In this document: positions 806-31,336 of the stretch, in pieces
How positions within the stretch are numbered: the first letter of the stretch is position 1
Layout of the letters: every line of letters starts with the position of its first letter
Assembly: GCF_003315245.1 (NCBI RefSeq)
Contig: NZ_QNRT01000002.1
Coordinates: 728,206-792,205 of the forward strand
DNA from: Arenicella xantha
GTDB taxonomy: Bacteria; Pseudomonadota; Gammaproteobacteria; Arenicellales; Arenicellaceae
Direction of reading: 5' to 3'
DNA: 64,000 nucleotides
Notes under the pieces: generated by a model
The model's database searches: none
Told to the model about the DNA's origin: nothing
Seen by the model: only the letters and a program-made list of their open reading frames with translations
Translations under genes and position numbers: made by a program

Positions 806-1801
806 ATGAACGCATCTTTACTTTCTTTATTTCTCCCCTTTATTTTATCTATCGGTTTGCACAGCGAGAACGCTGCGGCTAAAAACCCATTAGATTTCGG
901 CAGTAATATTCGTACCGCCGACCCATCAGGACATGTTTGGAATGATGGACGAATGTATTTATACACATCACATGACCAAGAGTGCCAACCTGATTTTTAT
1001 ATGAAAAATTGGCATGCATTTTCTTCAAATAATTTGGTGGATTGGACTGATCACGGCCCAATTCTGTCGGTAGACGACCTCAGTTGGTCAGATAATTTCG
1101 CATGGGCACCAGACGCAGCGTACAAAAATGGCAAGTATTATCTGATTTTTCCAGCCGGCACTGGCTATAAGGACCGAGTTGAACCGGAAAAAAGTACTAA
1201 ATGGATGGGAATTGGTGTTGCGGTCAGTGACTCACCGACCGGACCGTTTAAAGATGCGATTGGCAAACCATTATGGACCGAACCCTACGCTAACGACCCG
1301 AGCTTGTTTATTGATGACGACGGACAAGCCTATTTGTATTTTCATGCGCAAGGCACGGATTACCATGTAGCCGAGATGTCCGACGACCTACTCAGCATCA
1401 AAGGTGACTTTATTGAAATGGACATGGGGGGCTATGAACCAAAAATGGAAGGTCCTTGGGTATTCAAACGCAACGGGCTCTACTATTTCACTATGCCTGA
1501 AAATAACCGCTCACTTAGTTACTACACCAGCGAATCACCCAAAGGACCTTGGACTTACAAGGGTATTTTTATGCAATCAGAAGGTGGTAATAATCATCAC
1601 TCAATCGTTGAGTACCACGGGCAGTGGATATTGTTTTATCACCGCTGGCTCGACATCAATTCAACTTGTCACCGCAAACAGCGACACACTGCGGCAGAAT
1701 ATCTCTACTTCAACGATGATGGCACGATTCAACCTGTAGAGCGTACCCTTGAGGGCGTCGGTGATTTTCCGTCAAAAATATCAGACACATCACAGCGCTA
1801 A
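806..1801 (+). CDS. Secreted glycoside hydrolase family 43 protein
   Basis: This is a probable exo- or endo-acting arabinan/xylan-type glycosidase with the five-bladed beta-propeller of GH43. A signal peptide covers about residues 1-25, with a hydrophobic core SLFLPFILSIGL and an AAA cleavage area. The expected GH43 acidic triad is visible: Asp39 in ADPSGHVW, Asp164 in NDPSLF and Glu215 in MEGPWVF. At 331 residues it is a single catalytic domain with no accessory carbohydrate-binding domain. The start at 806 gives a sound signal peptide, with a weak GAG ribosome site about 12 bases upstream. It faces a second GH43 gene on the opposite strand across a shared hairpin. The substrate cannot be fixed from sequence alone; arabinose- or xylose-containing glycans are likely. 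Confidence 0.88.
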   Translation: MNASLLSLFLPFILSIGLHSENAAAKNPLDFGSNIRTADPSGHVWNDGRMYLYTSHDQECQPDFYMKNWHAFSSNNLVDWTDHGPILSVDDLSWSDNFAWAPDAAYKNGKYYLIFPAGTGYKDRVEPEKSTKWMGIGVAVSDSPTGPFKDAIGKPLWTEPYANDPSLFIDDDGQAYLYFHAQGTDYHVAEMSDDLLSIKGDFIEMDMGGYEPKMEGPWVFKRNGLYYFTMPENNRSLSYYTSESPKGPWTYKGIFMQSEGGNNHHSIVEYHGQWILFYHRWLDINSTCHRKQRHTAAEYLYFNDDGTIQPVERTLEGVGDFPSKISDTSQR

Positions 1802-1816
1802 TCTATAAATCGCAAT

Positions 1817-1852
1817 GCTCTTGGTTTATGTGCGGAGTCATCAACCAAGAGC
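1817..1852. terminator. Bidirectional hairpin between convergent GH43 genes
   Basis: A perfect 10-bp stem pairs GCTCTTGGTT (1817-1826) with AACCAAGAGC (1843-1852), with a 16-base loop. It lies in the 57 bases between the stop codons of two convergent genes, so it probably ends transcription from both sides. A long U-run is missing. Confidence 0.65.
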
Positions 1853-1858
1853 TTAACC

Positions 1859-3565
1859 CTACTCGCCCTCGATCCGAGTGTGTAGACCGATGTAACTTCC
1901 GACAAATCCACCTGCCAGCTGTGTGCTCAAAATAGTCGCATCAGCGTCGTCCAAAACAGTTATCACTTGATCCGATGATTGATAAGAAAAGCTCGCGACC
2001 GCGCCTTGGATCTCCACTCGTAACCTTAGTTCAGTTGAGGCTTCACCGGGCTGAGCAGCCAGCAGAGCGACCTCCTTTAAGCGACTAATTACGCCGTTTT
2101 TGACTTGCTCAACAAATACGCTATAACCACTATCAACTCTCGCGACAGCGAAATAGAAGTGAAAGCCCTCACTTTGAAATGCCGCCATTCCGACCGAATA
2201 GCCCGATTCAACAGGTAAACTAAGCGCTGTTTCGGCGACGTAATTAGTGTGCTGTTGACGTCTACCTATAAATGCCGGCTGACCAAAATCACTCAAGCGA
2301 ATTGGTAATGCTGACAAACGAATGCCCGGCCGCCCCTTATTTATTTGGTACCAATCATGTCGAACCGAGGTACGTAAAAAGTTCCAATGATGTGCGAGCT
2401 GAGGTGAATCAAAGTTGTCGCGCCAGGTGAAGTTTCCAGTTGTAGGCTCAGCCCCGCCCTGATTCTGACTCAAACCTAACGGCAGCGGCAAACGACTCGG
2501 CACCGGCGTGTTTGGCGGCAAAATGGTTGGCCAACCATCGCGCCACTGAATCGGAAGTAGGAACGTCTCTCGACCGGTACTAAAATGTACTTTGTGGTAA
2601 TTTCGCACGCCGAGGAACACAGCCCACCAATCGCCATCTGGAGTCTCTACCAAGTCGGCGTGGCCAGTGGCATTTATAGGATTGGGACGGTCAGCCGGTA
2701 GATCACGTTGAGTTAAAATCGGATTTCCACCATAAGGCTCAAAGTCTGCGGTCAAAGACTTAGCACGAAACACAACTTGAGAGTGGCCGTCACCAGTGCC
2801 GCCTTCAGCCGCGGACAAGTAGTACCAATCACCTACTTTATAAAGGTGCGGCCCCTCAATCCAAACCGGTTGCTGCGATATATCAACGCCACCATCAACC
2901 AAGAGTCGCTTTGACTCTGGTTTAATCGAGTTGCGATCTAAGTCAAATTCCCATATCCACAGTGCACGATGCCCCTCATACTCCGGAGTGCTCGGCGGTG
3001 GGCCATTGTGCGCGATATACACTCGACCACCGTCAAAAAAGATATCGGGATCAATACCACCGTTCAGCTCGGGCAGCCATACTGGGTCAGACCAAGGACC
3101 ATTGATGTCCTTAGCCGTGATCAAAAAGTTTTCCCCAGCGTCAATTGCAGTGGATACTAGGTAAAACACACCATCGTGAAAGCGCAATGTTGGAGCGAAA
3201 ATCCCGCGAGACATTGTTACTTGTCGACGAAAATTGAGATCCCTCTGCGACTCTAGTGCGTGTGTGACAAACCGCCAGTTAACTAAGTCACGACTATGGT
3301 ATATCGGCAATCCAGGCGAGTATGAAAACGATGAGTTGACTAGGTAATAATCATCCCCTACCCGACAAATACTCGGATCCGGATGGAACCCAGCAAGGAT
3401 TGGGTTTTGATACATACCTTCCGGCAAGCGTGGAGAGAAGACGGAATCATTGCCTTGATACTCAAACCAATGAAACTCGCCTACCTTCTGGGAGCCTACC
3501 GCTAGCGGCCCTAGGAACGCATTACCCAAGGTTATAATTAGCAACAAGGCCAAGCGTAACTTCAT
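1859..3565 (-). CDS. Secreted GH43 beta-xylosidase / alpha-L-arabinofuranosidase
   Basis: This two-domain enzyme probably releases xylose or arabinose from side chains or oligomers of xylan-type glycans. A signal peptide spans about residues 1-25. The catalytic propeller begins with the classic YQNPILAGFHPDPSICRVG segment (general base Asp63), continues with GGIDPDIF (modulating Asp near 172-174) and has the general acid Glu237 in IEGPHLYK. Residues about 375-568 form the C-terminal beta-sandwich usual for this GH43 group, starting near FTWRDNFDSPQL. The length of 568 residues fits the family. It is convergent with the other GH43 gene, and the two may act on the same polysaccharide. The exact specificity is inferred only from family resemblance. 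Confidence 0.92.
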   Translation of the reverse strand: MKLRLALLLIITLGNAFLGPLAVGSQKVGEFHWFEYQGNDSVFSPRLPEGMYQNPILAGFHPDPSICRVGDDYYLVNSSFSYSPGLPIYHSRDLVNWRFVTHALESQRDLNFRRQVTMSRGIFAPTLRFHDGVFYLVSTAIDAGENFLITAKDINGPWSDPVWLPELNGGIDPDIFFDGGRVYIAHNGPPPSTPEYEGHRALWIWEFDLDRNSIKPESKRLLVDGGVDISQQPVWIEGPHLYKVGDWYYLSAAEGGTGDGHSQVVFRAKSLTADFEPYGGNPILTQRDLPADRPNPINATGHADLVETPDGDWWAVFLGVRNYHKVHFSTGRETFLLPIQWRDGWPTILPPNTPVPSRLPLPLGLSQNQGGAEPTTGNFTWRDNFDSPQLAHHWNFLRTSVRHDWYQINKGRPGIRLSALPIRLSDFGQPAFIGRRQQHTNYVAETALSLPVESGYSVGMAAFQSEGFHFYFAVARVDSGYSVFVEQVKNGVISRLKEVALLAAQPGEASTELRLRVEIQGAVASFSYQSSDQVITVLDDADATILSTQLAGGFVGSYIGLHTRIEGE

Positions 3566-17293: not shown

Positions 17294-19063
17294 ATGAGCG
17301 GTATTGAACTTCGCACTGAGCAACCCATGCCACGAAGTCTAGAACAGGAGTTCTTGATTTTGTCACGTAACAACGTGCGCCGAAATCCGGTTCCGGTGTT
17401 CATTGGGATGATCGTGATTGCGGTGGCAGCATTAGGTGCTTCGCCCGCTATATGGGTATTTACCTGGCTCGCGACATCAGTCTTGGCGCTCTTTGGGCGT
17501 GCTTGGTTCATTAACAAAATCCTGAGCTCCAATGCATACGACGACCCGCGGCGATTACGCTGGATCTATTGGTTAAGTTTCGGCAACACCTTTATTTTGT
17601 GCCTGTCTTTAGCCTTCTTTCCTGCCATGAGTGTCATCGATTCGGTGCTGGTAACCCTAGTGATGGGCTACCTAGTCATTGGCGTCGTTATCACCAATGC
17701 CGGATTCGCCAAAGCGACCGCGCCCTACGTCACTATTGTGCTGATCTCGCTGGCGATTATGTGGTCGCTATTTCCGCCGTTAGAGGGCACAGGCGTATGG
17801 AAAGTCTACGTGCTCAGCGCTTTTATCCTGTTTATGAACTATGCACTGCTTAGTATTTCTAAAGAGATCCACCAACTATTTAGAAGCTCAATAGAGATGC
17901 GGCAGAAATATGCGGATATCAACCACCGTTTATCTGAATCGCTAGGCGAATCGCAAGCCGCCAATGCCGCAAAAACTCGTTTTTTGGCAGCGGCCAGCCA
18001 CGACTTACGTCAACCGGTACACACCCTGTCATTGCTAACCGCCGCCCTAATATCTAGAAATGCGGCCAGTGAGAATAAAGATGAGCGGATCACTGACATC
18101 ACCAGCACTATGGATAAAGCACTGCATAGCCTAGCGGTGCAGCTGGACTCGCTCTTAGATATCTCTAAATTGGATGCAGGAATTGTCACGCCTAATTTTG
18201 GCAATACTGATGTAACTGCAATTCTGCGTCGGCTAAAAAATGAATTTTTGCCATTTGCCAATGAGAAACAACTCTCAATTCAACTCGATATTCCCGACTC
18301 AGCTCCGGCCTATACGGATGCTACTCTACTAGAAAGACTGCTACGTAACTTGCTAGCAAATTCAATCAAATATACTGAAACAGGAAGCATTCTGCTCAGT
18401 GTTAATTGCGACGATGACGTGTTGATTAGCGTCAAAGACACGGGCATTGGCATTGCTCAAGATCAACAAAAACTAGTGTTCGAAGAGTTTTATCAAATTG
18501 ATAACCCGCATCGTGATCGAAGCAAAGGGCTAGGCTTAGGGCTGTCTATCGTGAGTCGCTTATGCACATTATTAGACATCCGATTAACACTCCAATCGTC
18601 GGTCGGGCAAGGTAGCGAATTCTCACTCCACCTTAGCCGAGGCACGGCCATGGTGTCGACAGAAACACACTCCAAACCCACTTATTCGTTTAATCGTTTA
18701 CGCGTATTAGTGTTAGATGACGAAACCGATATATTGCTAGCGACGCAGGTATATTTGGAGGCACTCGATTGTGTGGTGATGTCGGCTGAGACAATCGAAG
18801 AAGCACTCGAATTCGCCAAGACCGACTCCCCCGAATTAGCCATTATTGACTTACGACTTCGCGACCACACCAGTGGCATCGATGCCTTGAAAGCGATTCG
18901 CGGCATCCATCCAAATATTCCAGCTCTACTAGTGACCGGTGATACCGCTCCAGACCGCCTGCAAGAAGCATCCAAGGCCAGTGCAAAATTGCTGCATAAA
19001 CCAATCTACTCAGAACAATTACAAACAGCCATTCGAAATGCGATTCAGAATGGCACAACCTAA
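17294..19063 (+). CDS. Hybrid sensor histidine kinase with receiver domain
   Basis: This 589-residue inner-membrane kinase has about six hydrophobic helices between residues 33 and 195 and very short loops, so it may sense a membrane or cytoplasmic signal. The HisKA domain has the phosphorylated His236 in AAASHDLRQPVHTLS. The ATPase domain shows the N box (LLRNLLANSIKYTETG), G1 box (VKDTGIGIAQ) and G2 box (GLGLGLSIV). A C-terminal receiver domain (about 472-589) has the acidic pair in LDDE and the phospho-acceptor Asp in AIIDLRL. There is no HPt domain, so the receiver may modulate the kinase itself. The convergent LuxR-type regulator is a possible partner by proximity only. Confidence 0.92.
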   Translation: MSGIELRTEQPMPRSLEQEFLILSRNNVRRNPVPVFIGMIVIAVAALGASPAIWVFTWLATSVLALFGRAWFINKILSSNAYDDPRRLRWIYWLSFGNTFILCLSLAFFPAMSVIDSVLVTLVMGYLVIGVVITNAGFAKATAPYVTIVLISLAIMWSLFPPLEGTGVWKVYVLSAFILFMNYALLSISKEIHQLFRSSIEMRQKYADINHRLSESLGESQAANAAKTRFLAAASHDLRQPVHTLSLLTAALISRNAASENKDERITDITSTMDKALHSLAVQLDSLLDISKLDAGIVTPNFGNTDVTAILRRLKNEFLPFANEKQLSIQLDIPDSAPAYTDATLLERLLRNLLANSIKYTETGSILLSVNCDDDVLISVKDTGIGIAQDQQKLVFEEFYQIDNPHRDRSKGLGLGLSIVSRLCTLLDIRLTLQSSVGQGSEFSLHLSRGTAMVSTETHSKPTYSFNRLRVLVLDDETDILLATQVYLEALDCVVMSAETIEEALEFAKTDSPELAIIDLRLRDHTSGIDALKAIRGIHPNIPALLVTGDTAPDRLQEASKASAKLLHKPIYSEQLQTAIRNAIQNGTT

Positions 19064-19142
19064 GCATCACCAAGTAGATCGAGTGTGACATTACTCTCAA
19101 AACTCCATCCATGGATGGTCTGAATCGTTGAGACCCGCACGC

Positions 19143-19183
19143 TAGCGATTAATTAGTCATCATCACCGATTAAATAATCGCTA
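19143..19183. terminator. Hairpin between convergent kinase and regulator genes
   Basis: A perfect 9-bp stem TAGCGATTA (19143-19151) and TAATCGCTA (19175-19183) closes a 23-base loop. It lies just downstream of both convergent genes. No strong T-run is present on either strand, so terminator function is uncertain. Confidence 0.45.
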
Positions 19184-19189
19184 ATGGCA

Positions 19190-19897
19190 TTACAAACCGA
19201 ATTTCAATTTAGCAGCAACGTACACGGCTTCAGTGCGATTTTTAACGTCGATCACTTTGTAGGCCATAGACAAATGGGCTTTAACGGTACCTTCAGCAAT
19301 ATCCAATTCACGTGCAATCACTTTATTTGATTTACCTTTGATAGCACCAATCAACACCTCAAATTGGCGCTTCGACAACTTGGACACCTGCGCGTGATCC
19401 AGCGGCAGGTTATCGTCCATATCGAAAAATGGATTTTTGTTGACTTGCTCTACTCGTTCCACCGAGCGAGCTAAACGATCTGGGTCGGCGTTATTGTCTG
19501 AGTAGGCAATCGGTGGCAAATAAATACCGCCAGCTAAAATCAATTGCAACGCCGCTATCATAATGTTCGGCGTCGATGACTTAGGAATAAAGCCGGCCGC
19601 GCCGGCATCAATAGCGCCTCGGATAATGGCCGGATCGTCTTCACTCGACAACAGCACCACGGTGGTCGCCGGAAAGGTGGATTTTATCTCCTTGAGTGCA
19701 TCAAACGTGCCATCACAATCCGGCAAATGAAAGTCTAGCAACACTAGCTCCGTGGTTTGCTCGCACACGGACATCGCCTGCCTACAGCTTTCTGCTTCTA
19801 TTATTTCAAGCGCTTGATCCAAATCTTCTAGCAGAAAGCACAACCCACTACGAAACAAGGCATGATCATCAACGAGTAATATTTTAAGTCCAGTCAT
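19190..19897 (-). CDS. NarL/FixJ-type response regulator
   Basis: This is a 235-residue two-domain regulator. The receiver domain (about 1-125) shows the acidic pair in LLVDDHALFRSG, the phospho-acceptor Asp in VLLDFHLPDCDG (about residue 55), the conserved Ser in VVLLSSEDDP and Lys in GFIPKSS. The C-terminal LuxR-type helix-turn-helix (about 170-235) has LSKRQFEVLIGAIKGKSNKVIARELDIAEGTVKAHL in pattern, so it binds DNA. It lies 27 bases downstream of the GMC oxidoreductase gene on the same strand and could be transcribed with it. The kinase that phosphorylates it may be the convergent hybrid kinase, by inference. Confidence 0.92.
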   Translation of the reverse strand: MTGLKILLVDDHALFRSGLCFLLEDLDQALEIIEAESCRQAMSVCEQTTELVLLDFHLPDCDGTFDALKEIKSTFPATTVVLLSSEDDPAIIRGAIDAGAAGFIPKSSTPNIMIAALQLILAGGIYLPPIAYSDNNADPDRLARSVERVEQVNKNPFFDMDDNLPLDHAQVSKLSKRQFEVLIGAIKGKSNKVIARELDIAEGTVKAHLSMAYKVIDVKNRTEAVYVAAKLKFGL

Positions 19898-19924
19898 GAT
19901 GATTTAGGGTCTAGGTGGCAAGCA

Positions 19925-22900
19925 TTAATGATGTTTCTCCAGCCAAGTGTACAGCATTGGAAAAATATCGACACTAGCCCTATGTCCAACAAAGCAATCC
20001 ATATGACCATAATTCTCAAACACATGTCGATGATACTTATGCGAGCTCTGGGGGTTGTGTGCACATAACCAGTGAAACGTACGTGCCGATGTTTGCGGTA
20101 AGAACTCGAGATTCATCCCTCCTGCCATAAAATCAATTGGCAAATCAAGTTGCTCGATAGTGTTCACGGCATGTGACCCTGACTGGGCGTGGGGGATCGC
20201 CCCTAAATAGGTGTTTTTACCATCGGCGTCCACAACATGACCGGCGCGAATAATGTGCGTAAGCTGTCTAAATGAATCGAGATTAATCGGACCGAACCAG
20301 TCAGCCATTTTGGTGTGCGTCGCTTGATTCAATTGCGCGTGTAAATATGATGGACCATAGACTGCCAATATTCGATGGCAGGCAGGATTAGTACACTCTT
20401 CGCCCAGCGGTGTCGGCACTTGATAAGTCATCACATCGAACATTCTATCGAAACCAGTGGTTCCCGCTCGCATACTGACCACATTATCCATTTTTTTGAT
20501 CAGCGGAATGCTTTCAAGTTGAGTCACCACATCCAAATCAGCTTTCGCATTGTTTAGCCAGTTGGTCACCGGATGTAACGTTAGTTGTGAGGACACGACC
20601 GAACGAATCGAGCGCTTATCAACGTATTCTCGTAACAAGCTCATAAGTAAACTCATCGAGCCGACACAGTGCGCAACAATCTGCACCTGCTCGGCTGTTG
20701 AGTTCGATAACACAAAATCAAGCGCCGCTGGCCAATCGTATTGTGCAATTTGATCGATACTAAATGCGCTATGCGACGAGCCTGAATCAGCACTAGCACG
20801 GTAGTCAAACAACCATACGTCGTGGCCTCTCTTGCGCAGGAAATCAACCAAGTTGCATTCGACGGTTTGTGCCGCAAATGACGATGCAGTGACCCCCATA
20901 CCTGGTGCAAGAATGATAGGTATTGCGGTGTCTTTCGCTTGCTTTGATGCTGCTGTTTGAGGTCGATAGCGAGTAAGCCTAATGGTCGCCCCATCGCCAA
21001 CTCGTATCAACGGAAACACCTCCTTGTCGGTATCGACCACCGTGCCCTTTTTCGCTAAACCCTTCTTCGGATAATTATTTAACGTCGCTAGCAAACCACC
21101 ATAAGCTCGAAACACCGTCTCGGCCAACGAAGCGCCCAGTTTAGCGACCTGAAATAAACCAATGCCGGCTTTAATCGTGTCGACTTTGCGGGCTGCCGCA
21201 ATCGCAATAAACAATACCTCTCCTAATACGTTTCGTAAGTCACTGGTTTTTAGCGTTGTGTTAAAGGTGCTTACTTGCTGAATGAAATCTTGTAGATTCA
21301 AACGCACAATCCCGCTGGATATGCGCTGCACTGGAGAACCATCGGCTGTGAAGATATCGACATAAAGCGTGGTTAGATCAGTCCACCAATGTGACCCAGG
21401 CATGCCCTGCAGGTTTTTTCGGCCGACCAATTTAAGCGCCTTACCTGCCCCATCGACATAATTAATTTCGTAGATCATCAACCAACGTTCAGCGGCATCC
21501 ACGTCTGGAACTAACAATTGAAACGTCCCAGCAATAATCGGATGCACCTGATTGTTGACCAGCACCTCACCTTGCGAAATCATGCACACCGTTTTGCGCT
21601 CTTGCGTGAGCTGATTGACCTCAGGAATACGAATGGTTAGGTTGAGCCTCAAGGACTGGCTATCAGACTCTCCGCAAGAAGCGGCTCGCATGTAGTCGTG
21701 CTTGCTCAGCACCGACGCGGACCGAGCATTGTTTACCCCATGAATAAAACCCGACATAGTTTCAGAAAACTCACAGGCCGTCTTCAATTGGTCCTTATTC
21801 AGATCGATAAATGACGTCGCCGCACTGGCTAGATCTTGTAACAAAACCTTTTCGGCATCGGATGAACTGGCGTAGGTCTCGTCATCAATAGCGTCGGAAT
21901 CGTCATCAAGGCCGATTACCGCCGAGGCAACTGGGTCGCTCTCGCCGAACAGTAGCTCTTCAGCCCATGCTTCTGGTTCGGCGCTATCAGCCAAATCGCC
22001 AGCCGATTGGATGGCTGGTGGTGCTGACGCCGTTGATGCTTGGTGCGCTGCCACACGACTTGCTGCATGATCCGTGTAATCAATATGCCAACCATGTTCG
22101 TTAGCCAGCAGGTCACAACACCGCTCAGCCAGCGCACTAATAGTAAGCAACGGATTGACGCCAATAGCACCAGGCATAATCGAACCATCGCAAATATAGA
22201 GACCGGCATAGACCGAGCTGTCTGAGTCACAATCGAACACTTGGCAACGGTCATTCACCACGCCTTGCTGATGCGTGTCAGCCATGCCGCAACCACCGAG
22301 CGGATGCACGGTAATCAGTTTATTACCAAATGCATCTTTACTGATTGGGTTCTTGATCAACTGCCCTTGCACCGCGTCATTAACCCGAGCCAGTGTGTCG
22401 TGATTAGCCTTTACAATGCTACTTTTTCCGACATCAGGCCAATCAATCTTTAGTCTATTTTGATCCAATTCAAGTTTACCAGACGACTCATCCATGCCCA
22501 TCACTAAGTATGTCTGAGTGCGGCTGATGGCGCCGGTATAGGCTAGATCACTAAGTGCCGAAGGGTCACTTTCCACCGCCGTCGCCACAGCTTGGACATC
22601 GCGCAATCTGGTTTCGGCTTGACCGGCTCCATAACGGAGAAAATTGGCATTGCCTGCGGCACCGAACATCAGCGTAGCTGAAATAACGCTAGCAAACGCA
22701 CCAGGAACCACGCCTTCCTCGATCACTAGCTGCTGTTCCGCAGCTTGACCATCATCACGCAAATCGATAACACCGGTAATACATGGCCCAGGCATTTGAT
22801 CGTCAGTCAGCTCATTCGTTCCCTGTCCAACACCGTAGACACTCTCGTAACGAGGTGCGCCGTCTTCACGCAACATTGGATCTGAGTGTTCATTATTGTC

Positions 22901-23923
22901 CTGCCAATAACTGTTGTAACCAAACGCCAGTAAATCGCCATTGCCGGAAAACTGCTGACCAAGTTGCTCCGAACACTTTAAGCCTGCCGCTTTTGAGCGC
23001 AACATAATCTCGGTCGAGCCTAAGGTGCCGCAAGCCAACACTAATACCTTGGCTTTAATTACCTTGTGCTTATAAGAACGCGAGCGACGTGCCGGACGTT
23101 CAGTCGGCTTAACATAGATTAACCATCCACCTTTAGTCTGCTCAATATAATCAACCGTGGTATTGCAGAACAGTTCCGCGCCATGCGCTTTAGCATCTGG
23201 CAGATAGTTCATCAGCGTAGTATTTTTTGCTCCAACATTGCAACCCGAACAACAATCACCGCATAGATTGCATTGTTCCTGCTGAAAGCCGAAGTGATTC
23301 GCGCGGCCTTGATCGAAGGTCACATTAATGTCAGGGCGAACCACCTCAACCCCAAGCGCGAGCGCGGATTTTTCAAGAGCTAATAGCTTGTTTAACGGCT
23401 TGTAGCCATGCTGATCTTGATCGTCCGACAATGGATATGGATTAGCGCCGAGACCCTCGCGAGCCAAGTCGTAGTAGCGCTTAAGCAAGTTTGGCTGTTC
23501 GCGAAACACGCTAGGCCACTGCAGGCCTTCGCGCGTGAAGACCGACTCCTTGAGTTCCAATGACACATTGGCGTTGATCAGCGAGGTACCGCCCAAACCG
23601 CAACCCACCAACGCGCTCATGTCTTCATTCACGCGCAAATCAAATAGTGCGGTCGGTTTACCGATCGGCGCGTTATCATGATTATCGGTGCGTATCTGAG
23701 TTTGTTGCTGAATTCCACCTAAGTCATTCGGGTACTGTCCTGGGCGCAACTCCTGGCCGCGTTCAAGCAAGCAAACATCTTGACCTGCGCGAGCCATTCG
23801 GGATGCCACAATACTACCGCCATAACCCGAACCGACCACTACCACAGAGGCCTGTTTATCCTTGGCGAGTTCGCCATAATCGTATGAAATTCTCGATTGC
23901 TCTGTTTGCGCTTTATTGTCCAT
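19925..23923 (-). CDS. GMC oxidoreductase fused to alpha/beta hydrolase
   Basis: This 1332-residue protein resembles cholesterol-oxidase-type fusions. Residues about 20-620 are a GMC flavoprotein: the FAD motif VVVVGSGYGGSIVASRMA, a Cys-rich insert CNLCGDCCSGCNVGAKNTT, and the HPLGGCGM and GVNPLLTISALAERC region of the active site. An acidic, Ala-rich linker follows (about 640-700), then a beta-rich middle domain (about 720-930). Residues about 990-1332 are an alpha/beta hydrolase with PIILAPGMGVTASSF, DYRASADSGSSH and IVAHCVGSM. The nucleophile position holds Cys1086 rather than Ser, as in PHA synthases. No signal peptide is visible. Its gene overlaps the phosphoesterase gene by 11 bases. 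Oxidation of a sterol or similar hydrophobic alcohol is inference. Confidence 0.87.
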   Translation of the reverse strand: MDNKAQTEQSRISYDYGELAKDKQASVVVVGSGYGGSIVASRMARAGQDVCLLERGQELRPGQYPNDLGGIQQQTQIRTDNHDNAPIGKPTALFDLRVNEDMSALVGCGLGGTSLINANVSLELKESVFTREGLQWPSVFREQPNLLKRYYDLAREGLGANPYPLSDDQDQHGYKPLNKLLALEKSALALGVEVVRPDINVTFDQGRANHFGFQQEQCNLCGDCCSGCNVGAKNTTLMNYLPDAKAHGAELFCNTTVDYIEQTKGGWLIYVKPTERPARRSRSYKHKVIKAKVLVLACGTLGSTEIMLRSKAAGLKCSEQLGQQFSGNGDLLAFGYNSYWQDNNEHSDPMLREDGAPRYESVYGVGQGTNELTDDQMPGPCITGVIDLRDDGQAAEQQLVIEEGVVPGAFASVISATLMFGAAGNANFLRYGAGQAETRLRDVQAVATAVESDPSALSDLAYTGAISRTQTYLVMGMDESSGKLELDQNRLKIDWPDVGKSSIVKANHDTLARVNDAVQGQLIKNPISKDAFGNKLITVHPLGGCGMADTHQQGVVNDRCQVFDCDSDSSVYAGLYICDGSIMPGAIGVNPLLTISALAERCCDLLANEHGWHIDYTDHAASRVAAHQASTASAPPAIQSAGDLADSAEPEAWAEELLFGESDPVASAVIGLDDDSDAIDDETYASSSDAEKVLLQDLASAATSFIDLNKDQLKTACEFSETMSGFIHGVNNARSASVLSKHDYMRAASCGESDSQSLRLNLTIRIPEVNQLTQERKTVCMISQGEVLVNNQVHPIIAGTFQLLVPDVDAAERWLMIYEINYVDGAGKALKLVGRKNLQGMPGSHWWTDLTTLYVDIFTADGSPVQRISSGIVRLNLQDFIQQVSTFNTTLKTSDLRNVLGEVLFIAIAAARKVDTIKAGIGLFQVAKLGASLAETVFRAYGGLLATLNNYPKKGLAKKGTVVDTDKEVFPLIRVGDGATIRLTRYRPQTAASKQAKDTAIPIILAPGMGVTASSFAAQTVECNLVDFLRKRGHDVWLFDYRASADSGSSHSAFSIDQIAQYDWPAALDFVLSNSTAEQVQIVAHCVGSMSLLMSLLREYVDKRSIRSVVSSQLTLHPVTNWLNNAKADLDVVTQLESIPLIKKMDNVVSMRAGTTGFDRMFDVMTYQVPTPLGEECTNPACHRILAVYGPSYLHAQLNQATHTKMADWFGPINLDSFRQLTHIIRAGHVVDADGKNTYLGAIPHAQSGSHAVNTIEQLDLPIDFMAGGMNLEFLPQTSARTFHWLCAHNPQSSHKYHRHVFENYGHMDCFVGHRASVDIFPMLYTWLEKHH

Positions 23924-25418
23924 GTTGCTTTACCCCATCACTTGAATTTCGGTCGAAAAATTGGTCTCGCACTTCCATCGCTCGTTGCTCCATTGCATTG
24001 CGCGCACTGTCTTGGAAAGCGCACCACTGCGTCTGATCTAACTGGGCCTGCATTCGCCGCAACAGATCGTTGTCGGCAACGCTCCCAAACTCTGCTCCTT
24101 CGACCGTAACCGGCGGCATCGCGCCATTCACCGGTGCTTGAAACAGTCGTAACGAAGCGGTATTGAGCTGAGCGTCAACAAAAATAACGGCGCCACCTTG
24201 CACTGAGCTGAAGTCGGGCTGGTCGACAACCCAACCGCCAGAGTTGAACACTTTCACCGGCAATTGAAAGCCATCAACACCTAGCGAATCTTGAAAAGGT
24301 TTATGCGTATGTCCAAATATGAAGGTGGTATCGGTAAGAACTAGCCGTGAGTCATGCGCGGCCGCCATCGCTGAATCTGGCGCATCGTCGAGTATCTGTT
24401 GGTGCAATGGCTTAGACAAATACCACTGCAACCCTTCCCAGCCCTCTTCTGACAATGCCGCATTATTATTGGCTCGCTCAGCCTGAAAACCACGTCCTAA
24501 AGTAGAGCTGATAATACCCGCCAATAGCTTTTCTAAGGTGAGGTTATTGATAATCGTATTGCTTGGCGACGTGCCCGATTTGCTACTCAAATACTCGCTT
24601 ACTAAACTGGCCAAACGCTGTGAATAACGATACGTCGCAGCGGGGTTTTGCATTATGTCGAATAACAATACCGTATTGTCTCGCTGTGCCGGTGACGCGC
24701 CTAGACTGGACCAAAAAAAGTTAATCCAACTACCGTTTTGGCGTTCTAACTCTTCGATATCAGGGTCACCGATGTCGCTCATCAGCTGATTGATAGTGGT
24801 CATCATTCGATATAGCGGTTCGACATAATGACCATGATGAAACACCACTTGCTTATCGCTGTGGCCGTCGTCACCAGCATGCCATAAACCCCAATTTGGG
24901 TAACGCATCTCAAACGACAGTCCGGTGGCCTTAGCGTACGGCAGTTGATCTAACAGCTTAGAGGTCAACGATGTCGACCGAAATAGATCAGTAGTCTGAT
25001 ACGGAATGCGTTCATCAGACTGATATTGGTCTTGTTGAAAACGCTCCAGAAACAAATTGTCTTTCTCGCTTTGCCAAAAGTGGTGGTCATGATTACCGGG
25101 CACGAAAACAACTTCTTTTTGAAAGACGTCAGGCTCATCGTCATCGAACAAAGCTCGCAACAGCACATCGAGCGAACGCACAATATCAGTCATCGAAGCA
25201 AAATCGAAGTCGACCAAATCGCCCAATAAAACAAGCTTAGGCAAATCATCGCCGTACACTTTCGGAATGTACTGACGCAGCCCCTTGATCAGTTCAAGCA
25301 GACAGTCGGAAGGTTTATCCACGTCAAACAGATCGTGCTCATTGCGGCTCGAGAGAATGCTGTAACGCGCGCCTAAATGTAAGTCTGACAAACATACGTA
25401 ATTGCAGTGGGGGTCCAT
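23913..25418 (-). CDS. Calcineurin-like metallophosphoesterase
   Basis: This 501-residue protein carries the full metal-binding set of the calcineurin-like fold: SDLHLGARYS (Asp12, His14), VLLGDLVDFD, VPGNHDHHFW, HHGHYVEP and FGHTHKPF. No signal peptide is seen, so it is probably cytoplasmic. The phosphorylated substrate cannot be read from sequence. It is the first gene of a unit with the GMC/hydrolase fusion, whose start lies inside its 3' end, so expression is coupled. A 16-bp palindrome lies about 50-65 bases upstream of its start. Confidence 0.9.
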   Translation of the reverse strand: MDPHCNYVCLSDLHLGARYSILSSRNEHDLFDVDKPSDCLLELIKGLRQYIPKVYGDDLPKLVLLGDLVDFDFASMTDIVRSLDVLLRALFDDDEPDVFQKEVVFVPGNHDHHFWQSEKDNLFLERFQQDQYQSDERIPYQTTDLFRSTSLTSKLLDQLPYAKATGLSFEMRYPNWGLWHAGDDGHSDKQVVFHHGHYVEPLYRMMTTINQLMSDIGDPDIEELERQNGSWINFFWSSLGASPAQRDNTVLLFDIMQNPAATYRYSQRLASLVSEYLSSKSGTSPSNTIINNLTLEKLLAGIISSTLGRGFQAERANNNAALSEEGWEGLQWYLSKPLHQQILDDAPDSAMAAAHDSRLVLTDTTFIFGHTHKPFQDSLGVDGFQLPVKVFNSGGWVVDQPDFSSVQGGAVIFVDAQLNTASLRLFQAPVNGAMPPVTVEGAEFGSVADNDLLRRMQAQLDQTQWCAFQDSARNAMEQRAMEVRDQFFDRNSSDGVKQHGQ

Positions 25419-25888: not shown

Positions 25889-25926
25889 ATTCGTGCCAAT
25901 CAAATGATTCGATTGGCAACACGAAT
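25889..25926 (+). promoter_or_regulatory. Two-part hairpin upstream of the fibre gene
   Basis: ATTCGTG (25889-25895) pairs with CACGAAT (25920-25926), and the nested CCAATC (25896-25901) pairs with GATTGG (25911-25916). The stem is 13 bp in all with a 3-base bulge and 9-base loop. It lies about 130 bases upstream of the fibre gene start, so it is either an operator or a leader RNA structure. Confidence 0.5.
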
Positions 25927-26054: not shown

Positions 26055-27470
26055 ATGAACAAAATGACCAAAATAGCCGCGTTTATCGGCGTTGCACTTG
26101 TGGCAAGCGGTGCCAACGCAGCAGATTGGAACGTAACGCAAAGCGCCGATATTACTGTACCAGCACCGAGTATGACGCAAGGTGCAACCTCCAACGTCGC
26201 TAGCAGTAATCAAGCTCTCAACGGGATTGTTATTGACGCTGTCAATGATGATTTAGCGTCAGGCACACAAACCACAATCATCAGCTCATCGACCGGTGTG
26301 GACCTCACACAGGGGCCGTCAGTAGATGCGTCGAATCAAGCACTCAACCTGATCATTGGTAAGGATGTTGGATCAGTGAGTACGATCTCGCAAACGGTAA
26401 GTCAAACAGATTTTAGTACCACTGCGTTAACGCAAGCCGATACGTCTTCGGCCGGCGCTAACGTGCAAGCAGCGAACTTAACCGATGCCACCGGCGACAT
26501 CGACCGGTTGGTGCAGAACTACGATGAAGTGGGGAACGTCAACTTAACGCAATCAACCATGACTACTAGCGGCAACGTGCAGGGCATTAACTATGCTAAA
26601 GGGGTCAATGTGGCGACCTCAAACCTAACGCAATCAGTTAATGTCAGTGGTGTAAGTAGCATGACTCAAGGCGCGGGGAACAGCGGTGGCAATAACACCC
26701 AGATTGGTAATGCGGCCATTGCAACTACTGGCTCTCTAGATCTGACAACCCAGACTTTTACTGCCGCGGCCGACTTAACTTTAACGCAAGCTGCGTCAGG
26801 CGCTAGCAACGTGCAAGCAACTAACCTAATGAAAACGGAGTCTGGCGGTAACATTGGTGATTCCATTGGTTCCACAACTCAGACCACCACGATTGCCTCG
26901 GGCCCAGCTGACTTTTCGCAAACCGTCAGTGCGTCCGGCAACGTGCAAGCGGGGAACTTCGCTAGCTCAGACGCTGATATTTCAGATTTGACTCAAACGT
27001 TTGAAGCCTCGGGCGCTTTAGAGGTGGATTTCGATCAAACACCAACCGCAGCGGCCAACACACAAGCGGGCAATATGGCGGTGTTAGCCACAGGAACTGG
27101 CGACTTCATCGACGAAATCTCTCAAGTGTTTAACAGCTCAACGACTTTGACTGATCTTAATCAAGTCAGCGCTAGCAGCACATTAACGCAAGCTGGCAAC
27201 TTAATTGATATCACCACTGGCACCATTGATGACAGCGGAACTACGCAATTATTTACCGCGCTAGGCGGCGCCGTGACGATGAATCAGAGTGGTGCAGGCG
27301 CCGCATCAGGGAACTTGCAAGCACTTAATGCCATTGTTGATAACGCTGGAGCGGGTAGTGGCGGCACCGTCAATCAAGTGCTCACGATCGCGTCAACCTC
27401 GTTCAGCATGGTGCAGGACAACATCAGCGGTTCAGGGCAATACGGCAACTTCGTTGGCGTTAAGTATTAA
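26055..27470 (+). CDS. Exported Q/N-ladder repeat protein, putative fibre subunit
   Basis: This 471-residue protein has a signal peptide ending near GANAADWN and then consists almost wholly of about ten imperfect repeats of 35-45 residues. Each unit has the pattern LTQ, a short spacer, NxQAxN, a spacer, then LxQxF or similar; examples are NVQAANL, NVQGINY, NVQATNL, NVQAGNF, NTQAGNM and NLQALNA. Regular Gln and Asn ladders between small and beta-branched residues suggest a beta-solenoid or amyloid-like fibre. The repeats are related in style to curlin but lack its Ser-x5-Gln spacing. I chose ATG at 26055, which has AGGA eight bases upstream and gives a normal signal peptide; earlier in-frame starts lack this. 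A paralogue with the same N-terminus ends the operon. Confidence 0.8.
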   Translation: MNKMTKIAAFIGVALVASGANAADWNVTQSADITVPAPSMTQGATSNVASSNQALNGIVIDAVNDDLASGTQTTIISSSTGVDLTQGPSVDASNQALNLIIGKDVGSVSTISQTVSQTDFSTTALTQADTSSAGANVQAANLTDATGDIDRLVQNYDEVGNVNLTQSTMTTSGNVQGINYAKGVNVATSNLTQSVNVSGVSSMTQGAGNSGGNNTQIGNAAIATTGSLDLTTQTFTAAADLTLTQAASGASNVQATNLMKTESGGNIGDSIGSTTQTTTIASGPADFSQTVSASGNVQAGNFASSDADISDLTQTFEASGALEVDFDQTPTAAANTQAGNMAVLATGTGDFIDEISQVFNSSTTLTDLNQVSASSTLTQAGNLIDITTGTIDDSGTTQLFTALGGAVTMNQSGAGAASGNLQALNAIVDNAGAGSGGTVNQVLTIASTSFSMVQDNISGSGQYGNFVGVKY

Positions 27471-27489
27471 GCAACAAAGCCAATGACTT

Positions 27490-27524
27490 AATTGGCCGAG
27501 TCGCGGTACTGAACTCGGCCAATT
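27490..27524 (+). terminator. Intercistronic hairpin after the fibre gene
   Basis: AATTGGCCGAGT (27490-27501) and ACTCGGCCAATT (27513-27524) form a perfect 12-bp stem with an 11-base loop. It begins 20 bases after the stop codon of the large fibre gene and 49 bases before the next gene. No long T-run follows, so it may stop only part of the transcripts or protect the upstream mRNA. Confidence 0.65.
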
Positions 27525-27572
27525 ATCAACTCAAATTACTCCATTTAAACCTACCGAGAAAAGGCCTGCTTT

Positions 27573-28004
27573 ATGAAAACCACAGCCAAAAACCTTAACA
27601 TTCTGGTACTGCTATGCACGCTCTCATCGCCGACTCTATCGCAAACAATTAATGAGATTGGAGTACAAGAACTGCAGGAGTTTCGTCCTGGTTGGGCATC
27701 AATTCCGTCCTTGCAGCAACCGAGCTTTGCCTACGGCGAGGTCAACAACAGCAAGCTGCTAGCTGAAGCTGGGGAAAACCTAAACTACTTAACCAGCAAT
27801 AACTTGATTGTCGGCAATACGCGCGGCTATCAGGTGGTTGGTCCGAATGGCGAGGTCTTCTATGTTGACAATATTGACAAACCCAAATGCGCGGTTGTTG
27901 CGCAATACATCGAAACAGCCGGCGACTCACTACAAATTAACCAATCAGCGTCCGTGGTCAGCAACGTGTACATCGAACAAGTTGACTTTCAAGACTGCTA
28001 TTAA
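27573..28004 (+). CDS. Small exported protein of the fibre locus
   Basis: This 143-residue protein has a signal peptide (LNILVLLCTLSSPTLS, cleavage near SQT). The mature part has no repeats. It contains NTRGYQVVGPNGEVFYVDN and ends with VSNVYIEQVDFQDCY; two cysteines, near residues 103 and 142, could form a disulfide. By size and position between the fibre gene and the CsgG-like gene it could be the counterpart of CsgE/CsgF or HfaA, an export or anchoring helper. I see no clear sequence match to those families, so this is inference from context. The next gene starts 25 bases downstream. Confidence 0.7.
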   Translation: MKTTAKNLNILVLLCTLSSPTLSQTINEIGVQELQEFRPGWASIPSLQQPSFAYGEVNNSKLLAEAGENLNYLTSNNLIVGNTRGYQVVGPNGEVFYVDNIDKPKCAVVAQYIETAGDSLQINQSASVVSNVYIEQVDFQDCY

Positions 28005-28029
28005 AGACACACACACTAGAGAACCCACT

Positions 28030-29157
28030 ATGAAAACGCTACTTACAAAAATGATTATTTCCGGCTCTGTGGCCTTGCTAATGTCAGGTTGCTCGTCGGT
28101 ATCACGCTACAGCTTAGACACCGAATTTGATTCAGCTCCGGTCAAAACGAAAACCAAAATGTCTGAGGCGTTACAGTGTTTACGTCGCGAGCTCGACAAC
28201 AACTTAAGTAATCCCAGTGCTTATGTATTTATGGTACGCGACATCATTGACGGCACTATCAAACATAATAACTACTCAGATGGCCCACTATCAGACGCTG
28301 GGCGTATTCAAATGATCTCAACCTTGAGCGCCCACACCAACCCCAGCTATGGCATTGTGGTCGATCAATTCCCATTAATGTTTCAACCTATTATCAGCGA
28401 GCAAATTGGTCTGGATCGATTCGGATTTCCGTCGCAGTCGAACCTCGACAACTTTCTGCCGAAACTCACTACTGTGGCCAATACCAACCGTGCAGCAAGA
28501 GGTATGAGTGCAATACCATCGGTAACACCACTCATTATAGATGGCGCGTTCACACGGAACGATAGTTCACATCAGCGCTCGAAAGGCTATGGTCAAAATG
28601 GCGGGTATCGCGGCGACGTGGAGGAAGAAAAAAGTGGCGCACTCGACTTGGGCAAATCAGGTTCCGAGCGATCGGTTACCCTCGTAGTCAATATTATAGA
28701 TCCACAAACCAACATGATAATCGGCACGGAAGGATTCGATCTTAAGTATTACAGTAACAGCAAAACAGCCCGCTTTAGAATTGCCATTGATAACTACTAC
28801 TACGGTTTTTCCAATACCGATGTGCGGGTTGAAACCTTACATGCGGCACAACAAACCCTGCTCGATGGCGCTGCAGTTTGGATTCTCGATAACGCCTTTG
28901 GTAACAAAGTGGATTTCTCACCCTGTTTTGAGACAGCCGAAACTGTCGCATTAGGCCGTGACTCTCGTCAATTATACTCGAACGATAGTACAGCGGAACT
29001 CGCCAACTCTGAAACTCCAGCGCAGTCGCCGGATACTACTTTAGTCAGCAACAACGCAATCCAAAACGAATCGTCGCAGGCTCAGCTACGCGATGACCGA
29101 GCGCTGGCTGCAAACTGGAAAGTATGCACCAATGACTCCAACACTGACTGCGAATAA
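28030..29157 (+). CDS. CsgG/HfaB-like outer membrane lipoprotein
   Basis: This 375-residue protein is probably the secretion channel of the fibre locus. A lipobox LLMSGC gives lipidated Cys21. The middle part resembles CsgG/HfaB: an early YVFMVRDIIDGT strand, RIQMISTLS, PLIIDGAFTRND, then VTLVVNIIDPQTNMIIG, a beta-hairpin region, and a final helix VETLHAAQQTLLDGAAVWILD. These correspond in order to the CsgG fold, whose nonamer forms the curli pore. A C-terminal tail of about 75 residues rich in Ser, Gln and Asn is an addition. The start is ATG at 28030; the frame stays open upstream, but that part overlaps the preceding gene and lacks a signal peptide. The homology call is from pattern, moderately sure. 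Confidence 0.78.
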   Translation: MKTLLTKMIISGSVALLMSGCSSVSRYSLDTEFDSAPVKTKTKMSEALQCLRRELDNNLSNPSAYVFMVRDIIDGTIKHNNYSDGPLSDAGRIQMISTLSAHTNPSYGIVVDQFPLMFQPIISEQIGLDRFGFPSQSNLDNFLPKLTTVANTNRAARGMSAIPSVTPLIIDGAFTRNDSSHQRSKGYGQNGGYRGDVEEEKSGALDLGKSGSERSVTLVVNIIDPQTNMIIGTEGFDLKYYSNSKTARFRIAIDNYYYGFSNTDVRVETLHAAQQTLLDGAAVWILDNAFGNKVDFSPCFETAETVALGRDSRQLYSNDSTAELANSETPAQSPDTTLVSNNAIQNESSQAQLRDDRALAANWKVCTNDSNTDCE

Positions 29158-29174
29158 ACCCAGAGGCAATAATC

Positions 29175-29888
29175 ATGAAATCAACATTGAGTACAATTTC
29201 GATCATGCTGATCATCGCAGTCAATAGTCGTATGACATTCGCGGCGGATTGGAACGTTGATCAAACAACGTCAATCGCCGCCGAGTCGCCGAGCTTAATA
29301 CAGCATGATACCAACGTGTCGTTTCAGGCGATTAATGGCATCGCACTCGATGTTGGCAACGATGATCTAAGCAACAGCAATCAGACGACCACATTAGCCG
29401 GCAATAATATTGCGATAAGCCAAACCGGCACCAACACTAGCTCGAGTGTGCAAGCACTAAATAGCATCACCGCACACTCGATGCGAGACATCTCACAGTC
29501 GGTAGCTGGGTTTAATACAGTTGCAATGACGCAAACTGGCGCGCTCAGTGGTGGCAATATTCAAGCATTTAATTACGCGCATGCATCAACAACTATCGAA
29601 AACTTATCTCAGTCGACGAGCGGTGCAGAATGGACGGTTAGCAATGGCAATATCGGTAGCACTCAGGCGGTCAATTATGCACAAGCCAATCGCTACACCG
29701 GTAGTCTCGAGCAGTCAACGATACTGACCACCGTTAACGCCGCCATTACTGGCGGCTTAACCACTCGCATCAACAGTGTGCAAGGATCAATTATCGGACT
29801 AAGCACGCCAATCATGCAGAGCGCAAGGATTGGCACGCTAAATATAGTGGGCCGTGGCACAGTCATTATAAATCACGTCGCACCTTAG
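29175..29888 (+). CDS. Second Q/N-ladder repeat protein, putative minor fibre subunit
   Basis: This 237-residue exported protein is a shorter paralogue of the large fibre protein. After the signal peptide both begin AADWNVxQ and share QAINGIALDVGNDDL-like and NQTT patterns. About four to five ladder units follow (SFQAINGI, SVQALNSI, NIQAFNYA, STQAVNYA). The C-terminus changes to a non-repeat segment ending GRGTVIINHVAP. In curli the short second subunit nucleates the fibre, and in holdfast systems a repeat protein anchors it, so a nucleator, cap or anchor role is plausible but inferred. The start lies 17 bases after the CsgG-like gene, with AGAGGCAA as ribosome site. Confidence 0.78.
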   Translation: MKSTLSTISIMLIIAVNSRMTFAADWNVDQTTSIAAESPSLIQHDTNVSFQAINGIALDVGNDDLSNSNQTTTLAGNNIAISQTGTNTSSSVQALNSITAHSMRDISQSVAGFNTVAMTQTGALSGGNIQAFNYAHASTTIENLSQSTSGAEWTVSNGNIGSTQAVNYAQANRYTGSLEQSTILTTVNAAITGGLTTRINSVQGSIIGLSTPIMQSARIGTLNIVGRGTVIINHVAP

Positions 29889-29929: not shown

Positions 29930-31336
29930 TTAATTTTGCACCGCGGTTGCTTCGAACACGAGGACCCAATCCTGACCACGACCAGCGGTAGGCGGCGTGA
30001 ATATCTGATACGTTTGGTTGTCGCGGTCGCGCGGCGATACGCGGAATTCATAGCTCACGCCATAGCGTGGATCAAACCAGTATTTCTTTGAACGCACCGC
30101 ATTAAGCTGACTTTGGTCAAGGGTAAACGCTTCGCCCATCGGGGAGTAAACAATAATTCTGGAGCGGTCGACTGAGCGCATCGCACGAATTTTCGCCGGG
30201 CCACGTAAGGGACCATCCACCACCAAACTTTGGTCGGGGAGCAGCGTATGGAATCTATTGGCCTCCATAAAACGACGCATAAACCCAAGCTGCATCGCAC
30301 CAGGATGATCAAGCGCCTCCCACCAAGGAATATTGGCACCGATCGCTGGCTCACGTCCAGCCTGCCACATTTGCCAAATATTATTATTCCCATAAGTATG
30401 ACCACAGGCACCGGCCATCACCGACCACCATGCGGCCTGACGTACGTCGTCGTCATCAAAGCGTTCCAATCGATTATGGTCCTTCAAATAAAAACCAACG
30501 GGTATCCCTTCGTATCGAGGCTCACCATCAAGCGTCGGACGCAGCGGCTTGAGTGCTAAATCGCGCTCAGCATATAAACCTGTGTCCAAGTTACGGCCCG
30601 CATGTGAAGTCTGTGACATATGAAAATCAAGCCACTTTGCATCGTGCAACTGAGCAGACGATTGTCCCGGCCCCCGTGGATGAAAGGTAATCAGGTGGTT
30701 ACCATCATCGCCATCACGAAGCCCGGCAGCCATCGCATCAATGATGCCACGTTCTTCTTTGGTGACCACGTTTTGGTCTCCGCCTAAAATCCAAATGATC
30801 GGCTTATCTTTATAACGCTGCCCGAGAAACTGACCATAGCTATAAGCATTGTCAACGGTGAAGACTTTATTCGCATCGCCAGTTTTCCAGTATTTTCCCC
30901 AAGTCGGTAATAAACCAACAAACATACCTAATGCTTCTGCACGATCCACCACATAATCTGCATGCTTAAAATAGTTTTGATTCGGCTTAGATGGGTCTAA
31001 ATCAATCAGCGGTAATTCACCATAAGCGTTCGGTTCAATCAGTCCATTAAGCTCGGCTAATGCTACAGTTTGAATCACCGTGAAACCTTTCCTCGCTCGG
31101 TCATTAAGGTAACGATCCACTTCCTCACGATTCAAGCGGTGAATTAAACTCCACGCAGTGTCTCCCAAGTAAAAGAAAGGTGCTTGGTCGCGGTATTGCA
31201 AATACCGCCCATTTGATGAGACCTCTAGCCGAGGCAATACTGACTCACTTTGCGCTTGCGCTGTGGCGACTCGCCCGATCACAAGACTTAGACTTAATAG
31301 AAGCACTGGAATAATTGACTGAATTTTCATTGGCAA
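29930..31336 (-). CDS. Exported DUF4038/GH140-like glycoside hydrolase
   Basis: This 468-residue enzyme is a probable TIM-barrel glycosidase of the DUF4038 group, which includes GH140 apiosidase acting on rhamnogalacturonan II side chains. The signal peptide ends near residue 29. The barrel begins with FFYLGDTAWSLIHRL, then GFTVIQTVALAE, MFVGLLPTWGKYW and WILGGDQN (Asp187, likely acid/base), and TLDGEPRYEG (Glu272, likely nucleophile). The last ~90 residues (about 375-468) form the C-terminal beta domain often described as putative collagen-binding. The true substrate is not certain, though pectin-like or other algal/plant glycans fit the other hydrolases here. Confidence 0.88.
   Translation of the reverse strand: MPMKIQSIIPVLLLSLSLVIGRVATAQAQSESVLPRLEVSSNGRYLQYRDQAPFFYLGDTAWSLIHRLNREEVDRYLNDRARKGFTVIQTVALAELNGLIEPNAYGELPLIDLDPSKPNQNYFKHADYVVDRAEALGMFVGLLPTWGKYWKTGDANKVFTVDNAYSYGQFLGQRYKDKPIIWILGGDQNVVTKEERGIIDAMAAGLRDGDDGNHLITFHPRGPGQSSAQLHDAKWLDFHMSQTSHAGRNLDTGLYAERDLALKPLRPTLDGEPRYEGIPVGFYLKDHNRLERFDDDDVRQAAWWSVMAGACGHTYGNNNIWQMWQAGREPAIGANIPWWEALDHPGAMQLGFMRRFMEANRFHTLLPDQSLVVDGPLRGPAKIRAMRSVDRSRIIVYSPMGEAFTLDQSQLNAVRSKKYWFDPRYGVSYEFRVSPRDRDNQTYQIFTPPTAGRGQDWVLVFEATAVQN

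Follow-up and report, generated by a model that had tools for sequence, protein, structure and literature searches.

What do four adjacent genes of the gammaproteobacterium Arenicella xantha build, and how would their products leave the cell? The genes lie in a stretch of 64,000 nucleotides (contig NZ_QNRT01000002.1, positions 728,206 to 792,205; hereafter the window), from a genome of 4.4 Mb in 29 contigs that is 99% complete. An earlier note, made from the sequence alone, had described two exported repeat proteins, a small exported protein and a lipoprotein of CsgG/HfaB type, encoded on one strand with short gaps, and had proposed a curli-like or holdfast-anchor-like fibre. The four open reading frames (ORFs), here called R1, S, B and R2, are indeed all found on the + strand, separated by gaps of 102, 25 and 17 bases. 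Searches of Pfam, NCBIfam and PHROGs gave no useful match for any of the four proteins, which together appear to form a rare relative, as yet without a name, of the outer-membrane export systems for sticky beta-sheet proteins. The features of the locus are as follows.

26055..27470, + strand: R1, exported repeat protein of 471 amino acids (aa), 11 units of 37-43 aa with three glutamines (Q) each; likely main structural subunit (ORF, repeat analysis, AlphaFold)
27489..27525, + strand: hairpin between R1 and S, 13 bp stem and 11 nt loop, without a T run after it (perfect inverted repeat, covariation)
27573..28004, + strand: S, small exported protein of 143 aa; possible accessory factor or nucleator (ORF, conservation)
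28030..29157, + strand: B, putative CsgG/HfaB-type lipoprotein of 375 aa, lipobox Cys21 (profile-profile comparison, fold comparison)
29175..29888, + strand: R2, second exported repeat protein of 237 aa, homologous to R1; probably a minor, tip or anchor subunit (repeat analysis, profile comparison, rates)

The ladder repeats with a unit of about 40 residues, as claimed earlier, exceed chance. In R1 the gaps between successive Q residues have a coefficient of variation of 0.31, compared with a mean of 0.92 and a minimum of 0.55 in 5000 shuffles, and the motifs [NST]xQxxN and [LIVMF][TSND]Q occur 10 and 18 times (shuffle means 1.0 and 3.3, maxima 7 and 11). Manual division of R1 at its Q triplets yields units of 43, 41, 41, 39, 40, 43, 38, 43, 41, 43 and 37 aa. 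Two weaker measures of the repeat are the count of Q-x7-10-Q (12), which lies inside the shuffle range (mean 5.2, maximum 15), and a modest BLOSUM autocorrelation (lags 25, 39 and 42 at z 2.6-2.7); thus, the units resemble one another more in their pattern than residue by residue. R2, divided in the same way, falls into six degenerating units, 40 to 31 aa in length; its gap coefficient of 0.34 falls under the minimum of 5000 shuffles (0.39), and its counts of the two motifs (4 and 5) are inside the shuffle maxima (4 and 7). The two proteins are homologous (profile comparison, E 6e-19 across 188 columns), and both carry A[DE]W[NV][VI]xQ directly after the signal (5/5 rows). A search of PDB with the repeat profile returned only five weak matches (best E 0.037), which were taken as chance. 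Structure prediction, for which the earlier note had called, produced an AlphaFold model of R1 with a predicted local distance difference test (pLDDT) score of 70.2 and a predicted template modelling (pTM) score of 0.78, with three strands in 8 of the 11 units and beta-solenoid structures among its fold matches. As modelled, the repeat would fold as a beta-solenoid with mostly three strands per unit.

No useful match to B emerged from Pfam, NCBIfam, PHROGs or PDB sequences. Because a four-row profile of B has no PDB match at E <= 10, the link to CsgG rests on profile-profile and fold comparison. Against a joint HfaB+CsgG profile, 0/1000 and 0/500 shuffled controls scored as high as B, and its affinity is towards HfaB or this joint profile, not towards CsgG alone; a first, smaller comparison with a profile of six HfaB rows reached a probability of only 30% at E 5e-4. 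Cys50 of B aligns with an invariant HfaB cysteine and Cys299 with a cysteine near the HfaB C-terminus. The alignment continues through B about 166-263, a stretch that we take to match the membrane hairpins of CsgG. The monomer model of B is of low confidence (pLDDT 39.1), and its best fold matches, at ranks 1-6, are CsgG structures. The putative CsgG/HfaB character of B withstood both the shuffled-control profile comparisons and this low-confidence structure prediction, each of which could have gone against it. No match to the HfaB model NF037935 was found at E <= 0.001 anywhere in the genome (as a control, the model was above cut-off in one named genome, with matches in Caulobacter vibrioides and E. 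coli), and B has no match to the CsgG model PF03783, which recognises 13/13 reference CsgG proteins at 181-275 bits. The only PF03783 match of the genome is a CsgG-family protein on another contig (L001, G000:C3). In a tree of B, HfaB and CsgG, the CsgG proteins form one side at 100/100 with B outside, and the B branch, of length 8.3, is too long for B to be placed. The earlier assignment thus stands as a profile and fold affinity to HfaB or to the joint profile, and not as a likeness to CsgG alone or a match to either family model.

The small protein S is 71-74% identical in two relatives and has two conserved cysteines, C106 and C142. It has no family match in Pfam, NCBIfam (E <= 1) or PHROGs, and a PDB search returned one chain at E 1.5.

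The genome-neighbourhood survey proposed in the earlier note recovered this four-gene arrangement, with its order intact, in two further genomes of the genus (G005/L006 and G015/L007). B occurs in 3 of the 18 genomes of the genus, in 4/109 of the order and in 2/369 of a class-wide sample, both members of the genus; R1/R2-type repeats are found in the same two class genomes, adjoining B. Among 398 genomes of the phylum, B is credible in the window's genome only, the other 12 of the 13 matching genomes having been dropped as chance (E 0.004-0.1, pieces of 27-128 model positions, some with internal stops). A plasmid collection held no match to B, and a contig scan, which is a weak survey since only two peptide patterns were used, matched 38 stretches, two of which encode relatives, both in genomes already found. 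In another family of the order (G051/L008), B and R2 lie at a contig edge, and the B homologue (L008:119-1405, 59% identical) has a C-terminal SPOR domain (E 1.8e-12). A W-x-V near the end of the window's B, seen by eye only, is not claimed as a remnant of such a domain.

Ratios of nonsynonymous to synonymous differences (pN/pS) of 0.07-0.54 indicate that R1, S, B and R2 are under coding constraint. Between the window and G005, nonsynonymous distance (dN) is 0.195 for R1, 0.155 for S, 0.17 for B, 0.185 for a neighbouring phosphoesterase and 0.60 for R2, synonymous distance (dS) being saturated in several of the compared gene pairs. R2 is thus the variable, fastest-evolving member of the four, as might be expected for a tip or contact protein. 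The hairpin between R1 and S is kept in all three genomes, with 38/39 cells paired and both partners altered in 5 of the 13 base pairs; 3/500 shuffles showed covariation as high, and three sequences are few. This element may set R1 dosage or protect R1 mRNA.

With moderate confidence, B is proposed to be a CsgG/HfaB-fold export channel for R1, R2 and probably S, which would build a surface fibre or anchor. What the data show directly is gene order and its conservation, repeat architecture, R1-R2 homology, the profile and fold affinities of B, hairpin covariation and the rate difference. As an outer-membrane lipoprotein of this fold, B would form a ring that serves as the export channel. Carried across the inner membrane by their Sec signals, R1, R2 and probably S would remain unfolded in the periplasm, pass through B and then fold outside into beta-solenoids; the open ends of these would stack to give a surface fibre or anchor. 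R1, with 11 turns, would be the bulk subunit, the short and fast-evolving R2 a tip, anchor or nucleating subunit, and S an accessory factor; the hairpin after R1 would permit an excess of R1. In curli, the N-terminal segment of CsgA is a targeting signal for CsgG, and the A[DE]W[NV][VI]xQ motif may likewise be a channel-targeting signal. We infer that the four genes make a surface fibre, anchor or amyloid, presumably adhesive and regulated.

An alternative considered unlikely is that these genes encode a genuine, strongly diverged HfaABD holdfast anchor (S as HfaA, B as HfaB, R1/R2 as HfaD) that tethers an exopolysaccharide adhesin to the cell, as HfaABD anchor polysaccharide in Caulobacter (excerpt of PMC6707917). 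The leaning of B to HfaB and its Cys50 agree with this, and the order hfaA-hfaB-hfaD (in L012, L013, L021 and L023) resembles S-B-R2. Within 1.5 kb flanks, an HfaA-like ORF was found in 10/17 HfaB loci and an HfaD-like ORF in 10/17 (4 HfaA-like and 5 HfaD-like ORFs had built the models; masked-letter frames were excluded). HfaD has a long unit too: the best autocorrelation lag of the ten HfaD ORFs (L012-L015, L017-L021, L023) is 46-48 aa in seven (z 2.7-5.7), 43 aa in two and 58 aa in one (z 2.3-5.7 over all ten), vs 37-43 aa in R1. By eye, S and HfaA have short collinear stretches in common. However, in eight tests (S against HfaA, R1 and R2 against HfaD, and R2 against HfaA, two modes and 60 shuffles each), S scored 19.4 against the HfaA profile in a very shallow alignment, with 2/60 shuffles as high, and R1 and R2 matched HfaD no better than shuffles. 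R2 against HfaA in global mode, the sole test to outscore all 60 of its shuffles (17.4, shuffle maximum 15.3), was left unused as one of the eight. The HfaD model NF037936, which matches its Caulobacter control, is, like NF037935, without a match in the genome, and S has none in NCBIfam. The holdfast-anchor identity is therefore not upheld, and the locus is assigned neither to HfaABD nor to curli, as defining features of both were looked for and not found.

Still more doubtful is the view that B is some other periplasmic or outer-membrane lipoprotein (e.g., a PelC/LptE/PqiC-like ring or plug) and that R1 and R2 are adhesins secreted by another route. The alignment of B spans the hairpin stretch that, to our knowledge, PelC/LptE/PqiC-like proteins lack, CsgG leads its fold comparison, and Pfam and NCBIfam revealed no further export gene within the four-gene block. 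A divergent curli operon is very improbable: the CsgG-like fold of B, a CsgA structure at rank 1 for R1 (though at a root-mean-square deviation of 9.1) and the second Q pair of each R1 unit, which at Q-x7-10-Q is near the QX10Q kernel but within shuffles in number, point that way, but the genome has no match to the curlin repeat (Curlin_rpt, PF07012) or CsgF (PF10614), each matched in the E. coli control, the R1 units of 37-43 aa and mostly three strands depart from the curlin unit of 23 +/- 5 aa (excerpt of PMC10192328), and the CsgG side of the tree excludes B. The earlier note had rightly denied the locus true curlin repeats. CsgE is absent from the Pfam matches of the four proteins at E <= 1, no genome search having been aimed at it.

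On the divergent side of R1, the window carries the following features.

25894..25918, no strand: near-palindrome, candidate operator (letters; also palindromic in L006 and L007 by eye)
23913..25418, - strand: metallophosphoesterase, divergent neighbour (family match, conservation)
19925..23923, - strand: glucose-methanol-choline (GMC) oxidoreductase fused to an alpha/beta hydrolase, conserved neighbour (family match, conservation)
19190..19897, - strand: response regulator with LuxR-type DNA-binding domain, conserved neighbour, candidate regulator (family match, conservation)
17294..19063, + strand: hybrid histidine kinase, conserved neighbour, candidate sensor (family match, conservation)

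These four genes (window 17294-25418) are conserved together in two relatives: in G005 and G015 the response regulator and the histidine kinase come after the metallophosphoesterase and the GMC-hydrolase fusion, the kinase being only partly covered in G005, where the contig ends. Beyond R2, the flanks of G005 and G015 have no match to the window. Within the genus, the metallophosphoesterase is full-length in only the 3/18 genomes with the locus; a fourth genome, G007, has the GMC gene and, at a contig edge, a fragment with the end of the metallophosphoesterase, but lacks B. Locus and flank seem to be inherited as one patchy unit, since the order is conserved and the metallophosphoesterase tracks the locus. 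The near-palindrome lies about 140 bases before R1, and the corresponding sites in L006 and L007 are palindromic, by eye, with changed letters, so that a candidate operator is suggested. Promoter and terminator scans remained at chance level. The reported lack of csgD is correct inside the four-gene block, and valid only there, because a LuxR-type response regulator stands in the conserved flank. Polysaccharide-breakdown genes also surround the locus (window 806-3565, 29930-31336 and 58939-63225). Two of them encode GH43 proteins and one an apiosidase-like protein; a further product, of 1428 aa, carries an alginate lyase domain at its C-terminus and, by eye, repeated domains in its N-terminal part.

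A broader suggestion, put forward tentatively, is that the locus represents a third CsgG-type secretion branch, separate from curli and holdfast anchors. Its own fibre subunit would be a beta-solenoid with three strands and three Q per 41-residue turn, and in at least one lineage the SPOR domain would tether the channel to peptidoglycan, directing export to the division site and hence the new pole. A literature search, with most subscription journals and preprints outside its reach, found no paper naming both CsgG and a SPOR domain and, in the portions of text that it covered, no description of HfaB-type systems in Gammaproteobacteria. If the present reading of the locus is right, CsgG-type export would be broader than curli and holdfast anchors and missed by current Pfam and NCBIfam models, and a further solenoid geometry would join bacterial surface fibres (two strands in curlin, a Greek key in FapC, mostly three strands here). 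The locus would also supply a possible nanopore scaffold, and the SPOR fusion would make a connection of fibre export with cell division open to testing.

Among known systems, HfaABD likewise combines a lipoprotein of CsgG type with two neighbours, a small exported protein and a repeat protein with a long unit, and B and HfaB have in common a cysteine in the N-terminal part and another near the C-terminus. In contrast, S and R1/R2 have no detectable HfaA/HfaD homology, the window locus has two repeat proteins where HfaABD has one, and it belongs to a gammaproteobacterium, with B on its own deep branch. HfaB-type channels seem to accompany diverse cargo, since divergent HfaB loci (L070-L074) carry, by eye, repeat or beta-rich proteins of 250-1030 aa and small exported proteins; the window locus fits this pattern without detectable cargo homology. 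LuxR-type regulators lie near some of these loci (by eye). With curli, the locus has in common the CsgG fold affinity of B and a Gln/Asn-repeat cargo of one longer and one shorter protein, predicted to form a beta-solenoid, whereas its units are of about 41 aa with mostly three strands, vs 23 aa and two strands in curli, and its genome has no CsgF or curlin repeat match. Fap export runs through the FapF barrel, in contrast to the CsgG-type lipoprotein here; no Fap model was run as such. Fap proteins resemble R1 and R2 in their imperfect Gln/Asn repeats and in a solenoid more complex than the curlin arch, and differ in having almost always three repeats, where R1 has 11 (excerpt of PMC12822426).
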